In this document: positions 58,776 to 62,357 of the stretch, piece by piece
Layout of the letters: each line of letters starts with the position of its first letter
Numbering within the stretch: position 1 is the first letter of the stretch
Source of the DNA: Planctomycetota bacterium
Lineage (GTDB): Bacteria; Planctomycetota; UBA1135; GCA-002686595
Assembly: GCA_029259605.1 (NCBI GenBank)
Contig: JAJDEV010000142.1
Coordinates: 1-64,000 of the forward strand
DNA length: 64,000 nt
Direction of reading: 5' to 3'
Translations under genes and position numbers: made by a program
Notes under the pieces: generated by a model
Database searches by the model: none
Told to the model about the DNA's origin: nothing
Seen by the model: the letters and a program-made list of their open reading frames with translations, nothing else

Positions 58776-60581
58776 ATGCGCCTCCGATTCGTTTGTCTCA
58801 TGCTCAGCGCATCGCTCGCGACGGCCCAGGACGCCGCGCCGGGCGATCCCGACGCCGCGCTCTCGCCCGAGATGCGCGCCGCGCTCCAGGCGATCGACCC
58901 GGCGCTCGACGGCTGGACGAGCGAAGCGCAGGCCTCCGCCGCGTCGCGCTCGCTCCGGGAAGTCGGCGTCGCGCTCGGCGCTCAACCGTCCGTGCTCGAG
59001 GCGATGCTCATCGCCGGCGCCGAGGTCGAGGGCCTGGTGCCGGACGCGTGGACGACGACGTTCGACGACGGCAACTACCACGTGCGGCGTGGAGTCGAGG
59101 ACGCGTCCGCTGCTCCGCCGGCGGTCGCCTTTCGCGAGGGCCTCGAAGCGCTGGGCGCCGCCTGGCTCGACGGAGCGCGCGAAGTCGAGTGCAAGATCGT
59201 CGGCGTGAGCGCGACGGACGGCGGCTTCTCGTGCGACGTGCTCTTCCACGCCTTCGGACGCGCCGCCGCGGACGCCCCGGGCGGAGCGCGCTGGCTCGAG
59301 CGGACGGCCGTGTGGCGCGTGGACTTTCGAGAGCGCCCCGACGCGCCCGATCAACCGCGCATCGCGCACATCCGCGGCTCAGGGGTCGAGGACGTCTTCG
59401 CACGCGCGCACGCCTTCGCGGACGATCGCGACGCGTTCGCCTCGCTGCCCGGCTTCCTGCGCGCGACGGGGGAGAGCGCGCGCGAGTTCGGCGACTTCGG
59501 TTGGGGGGAGGGGATGAACGAGCTGCGCGCGCGGATGGATGCGCGGCTCGGGCTCCCGCTCGTCGGCGCGCCCTCCGGCGTCGCCGTCGCCGATGTCGAC
59601 GGGGACGGCTACGACGACGTGTACCTCTGCCAACCGGGCGGTCTGCCGAACCGGCTCTTGCTCGGCGAGGAGGGGCGCTTCGTCGACCTGTCCGCAGGCT
59701 CGGGAACCGACTATCTCGACTTCTCGCGCAGCGCGCTGCTCATCGACCTCGACGACGACGGCGATCCCGACTTGGTCGTGTCGGTCGGGGCCGAGCTGCT
59801 GTTCCTCTCGAACGACGGGGAGGGCGTGTTCACTCCCGAGGCGAGCTTCTCCGCGCCGGAGAGCACCTCGCTCGCCGCCGCGGACTTCGATCTCGATGGC
59901 GACCTCGACGTCTACGCGTGCGTCTACTTCACTCCGTACGAGGCGAGCGCCGGTGGGGGCGTTCCGCGTCCGTACCACGACGCCGAGAACGGACAGGCGA
60001 ACCTCTTGCTCGAGAACCGTGGCGACTTCTCGTTCGTCGACGTCGCCGCGCTGCGCGGCATGACGGCGACGCGCTTCAGCTTCGCGGCGGCGTGGGAGGA
60101 CTACGATCGCGACGGTGATCCGGATCTCTACGTGGCCAACGACTTCGGTCGCAACAACCTCTATCGGAACGACGTCGATGCGGAGGGCGAGCGGCGCTTC
60201 GTCGACGTCGCCGCGAGCGCCGGCGTCGAGGACATCTCGGCGGGGATGGGCGTCGCGTGGGGCGACTACGACGGCGACGGACTCTTCGATCTGTATGTGA
60301 GCAACATGTTCTCGTCGGCGGGGAATCGCGTCGCGTACCAGGCGCGCTTCCACGCTGACGACGACGCCGAGGCGACCGATGCGCTGCGCCGACACGCGCG
60401 CGGCAACTCGCTCTTCCGCAACCGCGGGGACGGAACGTTCGAGGACGTCAGCGTCGCCGCGCGCGTCACGATGGGGCGCTGGGCGTGGGGCGCGCGCTTC
60501 GTGGACCTGAACGCGGACGGTCGGCTCGACTTGTTCTCTCCGAACGGCTTCCTGACGGGGAAGCGCGAGCACGACCTCTGA
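58776..60581 (+). CDS. CRTAC1-type FG-GAP protein, N-terminal part up to in-frame TGA (selenoprotein candidate)
   Basis: Residues 1-601 of what I read as one gene continuing to 62357. Signal peptide at about 1-17 (FVCLMLSASLATAQ), then a region of about 250 residues without known motifs. From about 270 on there are FG-GAP/VCBS repeats with calcium-binding loops: DVDGDGYDDVYLC, DLDDDGDPDLVV, DFDLDGDLDVYA, DYDRDGDPDLYVANDFGRNNLY, DYDGDGLFDLYVSNM and DLNADGRLDLFSPNGFLTG. The frame then meets TGA at 60579-60581 and resumes at once with SFFWRQVVSLSPG, still in family style. Proteins of this family normally run on into ASPIC/UnbV, which is exactly what follows. TATAAC at 58764-58769, seven bases before the ATG, suggests a leaderless transcript. 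Confidence 0.85.
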   Translation: MRLRFVCLMLSASLATAQDAAPGDPDAALSPEMRAALQAIDPALDGWTSEAQASAASRSLREVGVALGAQPSVLEAMLIAGAEVEGLVPDAWTTTFDDGNYHVRRGVEDASAAPPAVAFREGLEALGAAWLDGAREVECKIVGVSATDGGFSCDVLFHAFGRAAADAPGGARWLERTAVWRVDFRERPDAPDQPRIAHIRGSGVEDVFARAHAFADDRDAFASLPGFLRATGESAREFGDFGWGEGMNELRARMDARLGLPLVGAPSGVAVADVDGDGYDDVYLCQPGGLPNRLLLGEEGRFVDLSAGSGTDYLDFSRSALLIDLDDDGDPDLVVSVGAELLFLSNDGEGVFTPEASFSAPESTSLAAADFDLDGDLDVYACVYFTPYEASAGGGVPRPYHDAENGQANLLLENRGDFSFVDVAALRGMTATRFSFAAAWEDYDRDGDPDLYVANDFGRNNLYRNDVDAEGERRFVDVAASAGVEDISAGMGVAWGDYDGDGLFDLYVSNMFSSAGNRVAYQARFHADDDAEATDALRRHARGNSLFRNRGDGTFEDVSVAARVTMGRWAWGARFVDLNADGRLDLFSPNGFLTGKREHDL

Positions 60582-60610
60582 AGCTTCTTCTGGCGACAGG
60601 TCGTGTCGCT
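60579..60610 (+). promoter_or_regulatory. In-frame TGA with SECIS-like hairpin (candidate selenocysteine recoding site)
   Basis: TGA at 60579-60581 interrupts one continuous frame. Seventeen bases after it begins a five-base loop, GGTCG (60599-60603). The loop is closed by a perfect 6-bp stem, GCGACA (60593-60598) with TGTCGC (60604-60609), plus a G-U pair (60592, 60610). Bacterial SECIS elements sit just after the UGA with a short apical loop starting with G. The E. coli fdhF element, as I recall it, has a GGUCU loop about 18 bases after its UGA. If recoded, Sec would be residue 602. A nonsense mutation or base-call error is the alternative. selA, selB and tRNA-Sec are not in the window. Confidence 0.6.
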
Positions 60611-62357
60611 TTCCCCCGGCGCGGACGCGGGCGGCGCGTCCGGCGACGCGGCGCCCGAAGCCGGCGATGATCCGTACGCACGCGCGTGGGGCGCGCTCAA
60701 CAAGCTCATCCGTCGGGGACACTCCTGGAGTGGGCGCGAGCACAACTGCGCGTACTTGAACCTCGGCAACGGCGCCTTCGCGAACGTGTCGGCGACCTCC
60801 GGCTTCGACTTCGCCGACGACGCGCGCGCGCTGGCGACGACGGACTTCGACCTGGACGGCCGTCCGGAGCTGCTCGTCACGAACCGCACGACACCTCGCG
60901 TTCGGTTGTTGCGTCCGACCGCGTCGGACGGGCGGCGCGCCGTGGCGTTGCGCCTGCGGTCCTCGGGACGCAATCGTGACGCGATCGGTGCGCGCGTCGA
61001 GCTCGTGCTGCGCGCGAGCGGAGACCCGGAGTCGAGCGCCGCGGGCGCAACGCGCATCGTGCGCGCGGTGCGCGCAGGTGAGGGGTATCTCGCGCAGTCG
61101 AGCGCGTGGCTCGCCATCGGGCTGGGCGACGCGCATGTCGAGCGCGCGCTCGTGACCTGGCCCGGCGGAGAGGAGGAGAGCTTCGTGGGCATCGACGACG
61201 CGCGCGCGTACGTGCTCGAGCAAGGCACCGGACGCGCGTTCGAGTTCGTGCGCGCGCCCGCGAAGCATCCGCTCGCGTCACCCTCACGCGCGGTGGAGGC
61301 CCGACGCGTCCACGACGAGTACGGGCAGCGCGTCGTGCTCGCGCAGCCGATTCCGCTCCCGAACCTCGTCGTGCGCCCGTCGACCGGCGGCGAGCTCGCG
61401 CTGTTCGGCGTACGGCCGAACGGCGACGGCAGCGGCACCGGGCGCGCCGTGCTGCTCAACCTTTGGTCCGAGTCGTGCGCGCCGTGCGTCGGCGAGCTGT
61501 CCGAGTTCGCCGCGCGCCTCGGCGAGCTCGACGCGGCGGGCCTCGCGTTCCTCGCGCTCAACGTCGACGCGCCGGATGCTCCCGTCGCGGACGACGAGCA
61601 TCCCGGTGCGACGCTGATGCGCAAGTTGGAATGGCCTTACGCGTGGGCGTCGGCACCGGGGATCACGGTCGAGACGCTCGACGTTCTGCTCGGTGTGATC
61701 CTCGACACGCAGGAGCGCCTGCCGCTCCCGTCGAGCTTCCTCGTCGACGCGGACGGGTTCCTGCGCGTCGTCTACACCGGACGCGTGCGGCCGGAACAAC
61801 TCCTGCGCGACGTCGAACGCTTGCGGCTGCCGCGTGACGAGTGGCTCGACCAGGCGATTCCGTTCGCCGGCATCTGGCATCGAGAGCCGGCGCGCGCCCT
61901 CGCCGCGCTCGAGCCGCGCTTCGCGGCTCGCGGGCTCGAGGACGTCGCGCGCGAGTACGGACGCACCGCGTTCGCCGTCGTGACGAAGACGCGCGCCGAG
62001 ATGCTGCACGAGTTCGGTCGCGAGTACGCGGCCCAGGGCAATACGGCGGGCGCGCTCGACGCCTTCCGCAAGGCGGTCGACGAGGACCCCGAGTACTTCC
62101 AGGCGCGCTTCGACCTCGGGGTTCTGCTCCAGCGCGATGGACAGCTGCACGACGCGATCTCCGCGTACGTCTCCGCGCTGCGCATCGAGCCCGACCACAT
62201 CGACGCGAACTTCAACCTCGCGTTGGCGTACATCGGCACGCGCCAGCTGCGTTCCGCCGAGCGTCAGGTCGAGCGGTTGCGGGAGCTCGGGAGTTCGCTT
62301 GCCGAGGAGCTCGTCCCGTTCCTCGAGAAACTGCGCGAAGATCGGGAATCGAGGTAA
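60582..62357 (+). CDS. CRTAC1-type protein, C-terminal part: ASPIC/UnbV, thioredoxin and TPR domains
   Basis: Continuation of the gene starting at 58776, in the same frame. Residue numbers are for the joined 1,193-residue protein. SFFWRQVVSL follows the TGA directly. A last FG-GAP unit ends in TTDFDLDGRPELLVTNRTT. The ASPIC/UnbV domain is at about 735-815 (IGARVELVL, GEGYLAQSSAWLAIGLG, VTWPGGEEE). A thioredoxin/TlpA-like domain is at about 885-1010 with SCAPC (C901, C904). TPRs at about 1030-1185 (AAQGNTAGALDAFRKAVDEDPEYFQARFDLGVLL) end the protein. If the TGA were a true stop, this half could start only at the internal GTG at 60603, with no signal peptide, although the ASPIC and FG-GAP domains belong outside the cytoplasm. 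That argues for one protein. Confidence 0.85.
   Translation, partial: SFFWRQVVSLSPGADAGGASGDAAPEAGDDPYARAWGALNKLIRRGHSWSGREHNCAYLNLGNGAFANVSATSGFDFADDARALATTDFDLDGRPELLVTNRTTPRVRLLRPTASDGRRAVALRLRSSGRNRDAIGARVELVLRASGDPESSAAGATRIVRAVRAGEGYLAQSSAWLAIGLGDAHVERALVTWPGGEEESFVGIDDARAYVLEQGTGRAFEFVRAPAKHPLASPSRAVEARRVHDEYGQRVVLAQPIPLPNLVVRPSTGGELALFGVRPNGDGSGTGRAVLLNLWSESCAPCVGELSEFAARLGELDAAGLAFLALNVDAPDAPVADDEHPGATLMRKLEWPYAWASAPGITVETLDVLLGVILDTQERLPLPSSFLVDADGFLRVVYTGRVRPEQLLRDVERLRLPRDEWLDQAIPFAGIWHREPARALAALEPRFAARGLEDVAREYGRTAFAVVTKTRAEMLHEFGREYAAQGNTAGALDAFRKAVDEDPEYFQARFDLGVLLQRDGQLHDAISAYVSALRIEPDHIDANFNLALAYIGTRQLRSAERQVERLRELGSSLAEELVPFLEKLREDRESR

Follow-up and report, generated by a model that had tools for sequence, protein, structure and literature searches.

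A gene of a Planctomycetota bacterium encodes what is almost certainly a selenocysteine (Sec), in a CRTAC1-like FG-GAP propeller that is fused to a thioredoxin-like domain. Our combined reading, in which a TGA codon at position 60579 is read as Sec, the propeller is exported, and the Sec is redox-coupled to the CxxC motif of the fused domain, is likely (roughly 0.8), without evidence at the protein level. The decoding taken alone is the firmer part; it is shown by comparison among homologues, again without protein-level evidence. The redox coupling is a likely inference for which there is no biochemistry, and the distance between Sec and CxxC is unmeasured.

Domain organization and predicted structure

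The gene lies on the forward strand at 58776..62357 of the window (the whole 64,000-nucleotide stretch that was analysed) and encodes 1193 residues. Its frame runs from an ATG at 58776 to a TAA ending at 62357 and is interrupted only by a TGA at 60579..60581 (residue 602). FG-GAP repeats precede this codon, and further FG-GAP repeats, an ASPIC/UnbV domain, an AhpC-TSA-like domain and TPR repeats follow it. An earlier note, made from the sequence alone, had described the frame as open except for this TGA, with family-like sequence on both sides, and had proposed a new selenoprotein in a CRTAC1-type gene; translation and homologues bear out the description, and the proposal is supported, no decisive refuting result having been found.

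The product begins with a likely signal peptide, MRLRFVCLMLSASLATA (58776..58826, forward strand), read by eye from the translation with no predictor run, and an N-terminal region. Many homologues instead have lipobox-like N-termini, also read by eye from translations; that the protein is exported is inferred from these two kinds of N-terminus. The Sec-bearing FG-GAP propeller follows (59553..60965, limits approximate), matching Pfam FG-GAP_3/FG-GAP and containing DxDxDG motifs that resemble calcium sites. Domain searches place a UnbV_ASPIC domain (PF07593) at 60981..61193, an AhpC-TSA/TlpA/ResA-like thioredoxin-fold domain, supported by structural match as well, at 61440..61769, and TPR repeats at 62004..62285, all on the same strand. 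The CxxC motif (C901-A-P-C904) is encoded at 61476..61487. The presence of both FG-GAP repeats and UnbV_ASPIC meets the definition of the CRTAC1/FG-GAP-ASPIC family, and the thioredoxin fold with CxxC that of a TlpA/ResA-like domain.

An AlphaFold2 model of residues 230-1020, built from 92 sequences with Sec602 modelled as Cys, scored a pLDDT of 92.6 and a pTM of 0.93. Among solved structures, the propeller is closest to murine CRTAC1 (PDB 9etn) and the C-terminal domain to ResA/TlpA. In the model, Sec602, in the motif D-L-U-S-F-F-W-R, is predicted to be the first residue of a helix in the propeller. Redox-active thiolates and selenolates are often found at helix N-termini.

Conservation of the TGA codon

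The site is conserved across a large set of homologues, with homology extending to both sides of the in-frame TGA. When 60 relatives were searched with TGA read as Cys, dozens of homologues were recovered, each having a single internal TGA. In the alignment, this codon falls in the same column in 73 of 95, mostly within D-[LT]-U-[ST]-x-[FY]-W-R, and the remainder carry A, E, D, N, H or S there. The best 97 matches across 392 genomes of the phylum likewise contain exactly one TGA each, and the source genome itself holds four family members, all with TGA. TGA-bearing homologues are found in other Sec-using genomes. In named genomes, TGA is present in 51 of 77 loci encoding SFFWR[QH]VV, and homologues occur in Planctomycetota, Verrucomicrobiota (including Akkermansiaceae and Roseibacillus), Acidobacteriota and Lentisphaeria. 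In the full set of 184 homologues, TGA occupies the exact column in 137, Cys in 2, and N, S, E, A, D, H or G in 45. D600, W606, R607, S652, E655, D682 and R684 are invariant in the alignment.

The earlier note expected homologues to have either Sec or Cys at this position. The first part of this expectation held; the second failed as written, as only two of 47 non-Sec homologues (L161 and L182) have Cys, most of the others having N, S, E or A.

The SECIS element

Downstream of the TGA is a hairpin with the stem GCGACA/UGUCGC and loop GGUCG (60593..60609, forward strand), which starts 11 nt past the UGA and places its loop 17 nt past it. The published model of bacterial SECIS elements (PMC13188914) calls for a stem of 4-16 bp, a G in the first two loop positions, a spacing of 16-37 nt, and a minimum free energy of -7.5 kcal/mol or lower. 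The hairpin satisfies this model, with a spacing of 17 nt, at least 6 bp, the GGUCG loop, and -11.2 to -11.5 kcal/mol in windows of 38-42 nt; the perfect 6-bp hairpin with SECIS-like placement that had been claimed therefore holds. By itself it is unremarkable for DNA this rich in GC (z of -0.3 to -1.3 against shuffles); what makes the case is the comparison among homologues.

That comparison separates the two groups of genes. In the relatives' set, 60 of the 73 Sec genes, but none of the 22 non-Sec genes, have all six pairs in register; in the larger set, the hairpin is in register in 123 of 137 Sec genes and in one of 45 genes with neither Sec nor Cys. Genes encoding the identical peptide SFFWRQVV serve as a control, and among these the stem forms in 64 of 65 Sec genes compared with 1 of 25 non-Sec genes. 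Sec genes use GTC for one Val (63/65) and GTG for the other (65/65), as opposed to 4/25 and 11/25 in non-Sec genes. Because the difference in the stem persists with an identical peptide, it lies largely in synonymous codons. Part of it is not synonymous, since the residue after SFFWRQVV also differs, being mostly Ser in Sec proteins and Ala in non-Sec proteins.

An Arg codon in the stem covaries synonymously with its partner base. RNAalifold alone, applied to 31 elements, returned no consensus structure, probably owing to the shortness of the element and to a shifted register in about six of the sequences. Pairs were instead counted on the named structure; compensatory changes are seen in these counts, and the covariation score exceeds that of all 500 shuffles, which do not remove the effect of kinship among the sequences. 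In one homologue from the Phycisphaerales (L182, 2498-2530), TGC replaces TGA and the sequence of the hairpin is intact. This is likely a fossil SECIS left by a recent change from Sec to Cys.

Selenocysteine machinery in the source genome

The earlier note looked to selA, selB, selD and tRNA-Sec(UCA) in the genome as a check, and all are found, selC included, in a draft of 305 contigs that is 91.5% complete. Contig C13 encodes SelA (E 1e-122) and contig C46 encodes SelB (343.7 bits, over a cut-off of 242). The tRNA-Sec, with a UCA anticodon (75.6 bits), and selD (155-1099, 314 bits) share contig C263, and this selD is itself a selenoprotein gene with an in-frame TGA at the known Sec position, CAGUAAK. 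Across the source genome and its 60 relatives, selA is present in 59 of 61; as most genomes whose fetched locus is of the non-Sec form carry it too, finding selA does not tell the two forms apart.

Joint presence and absence of Sec and CxxC

Comparison also shows that Sec and CxxC are present or absent together. CxxC is found in approximately 125 of 130 assessable Sec proteins but in only one of 43 non-Sec proteins of the whole set. In the aligned sets, both cysteines are present in 44 of 44 Sec proteins and in two of 44 non-Sec proteins, one of the two being the Cys form L182. Most of the 42 aligned proteins with neither Sec nor Cys keep a thioredoxin-like domain without the cysteine pair; among the 44 aligned non-Sec proteins, Pfam recognizes such a domain in 20.

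A tree of all 184 homologues contains, on supported branches, at least six changes at the Sec position. Among five independent pairs, the average number in which CxxC moves with Sec is 4.4, and the average for the opposite direction is 0. These co-changes (about five) are too few for significance (sign test, p ~0.125), and gain cannot be distinguished from loss, as the tree is in effect unrooted. The earlier note's suggestion of a redox link between the Sec and the thioredoxin domain is thus supported by their joint presence or absence, not by biochemistry.

Four of the Sec proteins that were inspected (L050, L068, L093 and L159) lack either CxxC or the whole domain. L050, encoded on contig C69 of the source genome, and L093 have short tails without a thioredoxin domain and possibly rely on a separate reductant.

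Within the propeller, the column of C658 (60747-60749) contains Cys in 72 of 137 Sec proteins compared with two of 47 non-Sec proteins. We considered C658 as a general resolving Cys; with Cys in only 72 of the 137, at most a subset of the family uses one there.

Alternative explanations

The most serious alternative accepts that Sec is decoded and assigns it a metal-binding or structural role in place of a redox one. In its favor, the non-Sec homologues have N, S, E, A, D, H or G and not Cys, with ligand-type residues (E, D, N, H, S) among them, and nearby D, E and R residues are invariant. However, Ala and Gly are found in the same column, the absence of CxxC where Sec is absent is left unexplained, and the start of a helix commonly hosts a redox thiolate or selenolate; we regard this alternative as unlikely, although a metal-binding Sec is still possible. 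Still less probable is that the TGA is a genuine conserved stop that yields a short propeller protein, with a longer form made when an ordinary tRNA reads through it, either rarely or under regulation. A GTG start at 60603, shortly past the TGA, and the possibility of a truncated product under low selenium are compatible with it. Against it, conservation of the protein runs straight across the codon, the hairpin is specific to Sec genes and synonymously constrained, the genome encodes the full Sec machinery, and a TGC homologue with a fossil SECIS exists.

The two remaining alternatives are all but excluded. Sequencing error or a pseudogene might be suspected in so fragmented a draft, but this is refuted by the homologues: the same TGA is present in well over 100 distinct genes from several phyla, with the downstream half conserved, and its recurrence in many independent genomes cannot be explained by read error. 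For a genome-wide reassignment of TGA to a sense codon, such as Trp, we found no supporting evidence. TGA is an ordinary stop in this genome, terminating McsA and MurD, conserved genes within the window; the site is four codons ahead of an invariant Trp encoded by TGG, and the best family matches hold only one TGA.

A proposed mechanism

We therefore return to Sec602 as a redox center recharged in cis, which is favored because a selenolate at the N-terminus of a helix, invariant polar and aromatic surroundings, and co-occurrence with CxxC point to it. In this proposal, SelB and tRNA-Sec would decode the TGA at the downstream hairpin, giving an exported CRTAC1-like FG-GAP/ASPIC propeller in which Sec602 opens a helix in the conserved site. 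The selenolate may react with an oxidized or electrophilic substrate (peroxide, disulfide, sulfoxide or other), and the fused TlpA/ResA-like CxxC domain would reduce the selenenic acid or selenenylsulfide that forms; a single chain would then act as enzyme and as its own reductant. A DsbD/CcdA-type membrane thiol carrier may in turn restore the CxxC domain to its reduced state.

A bolder reading, towards which we lean only slightly, is that these proteins form a new class of exported selenoenzyme, abundant in Planctomycetota and relatives, in which the Sec site of the propeller is a catalytic center recharged by the in-chain thioredoxin domain, with several switches between Sec and non-Sec forms that CxxC has followed and almost no Cys counterpart.

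Relationship to known proteins

The propeller shares its fold with CRTAC1 (cartilage acidic protein 1; PDB 9etn), its best structural match (E 3e-25, TM-score 0.69 by target length), which is also matched by sequence profile (E 5e-24), and the ASPIC domain is common to bacterial FG-GAP/ASPIC-UnbV proteins. Unlike either, the Sec602 protein has a D-x-U-S-x-x-W-R site, a CxxC thioredoxin domain and TPR repeats; we found no record of a Sec form of CRTAC1 or of the bacterial FG-GAP/ASPIC-UnbV proteins. The C-terminal domain has the fold and CxxC of the TlpA/ResA thiol-disulfide oxidoreductases (PDB 2f9s, 1jfu), but is here fused to a Sec-bearing propeller. The TGA, the hairpin just downstream and the SelA/B/C/D machinery are as in known bacterial selenoprotein families. 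In contrast to the UxxC and UGC thioredoxin-like selenoproteins catalogued in PMC13188914, the Sec is not within the CxxC motif, and whereas nearly all known selenoprotein families have Cys homologues, this one has almost none.

The earlier note knew of no described selenoprotein of this architecture, and this holds within the sources searched. Table 1 of PMC13188914, a 2026 catalogue of prokaryotic selenoproteins with 119 families and subfamilies, contains no family with FG-GAP, CRTAC1 or ASPIC and no DxUSxxWR motif. No NCBIfam model reaches its cut-off for the protein, and open-licence full texts returned nothing for selenocysteine with FG-GAP or selenium with UnbV. The main text of a study of two Planctomycetes (PMC4807772) does not mention FG-GAP, UnbV or ASPIC; an earlier listing among the selenoprotein candidates in its Supplementary Table S9 is not excluded. 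The TGA almost certainly marks a large and apparently undescribed family of selenium proteins, exported by inference, whose CRTAC1-like propeller bears the Sec and almost always comes with a fused CxxC thioredoxin-like domain.

If so, the known selenoproteins gain a very large family, whose TGA forms occur in many Planctomycetota families and in members of at least three further groups, and the bacterial CRTAC1-like protein acquires a chemistry that can be tested, in which a selenol works with a thioredoxin domain of its own chain. Annotation has likely left these genes truncated or split in the organisms that carry them. The family was missed by screens for Cys/Sec pairs, possibly because Cys counterparts are nearly absent, and this near-absence suggests that other such families may be hidden.

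An all-against-all BLASTP comparison of the neighborhoods of 15 Sec genes revealed no conserved neighbor, so gene context gives no clue to the substrate. In some relatives, divergent Sec paralogues (L095, L097 and L103) are encoded side by side in tandem pairs.
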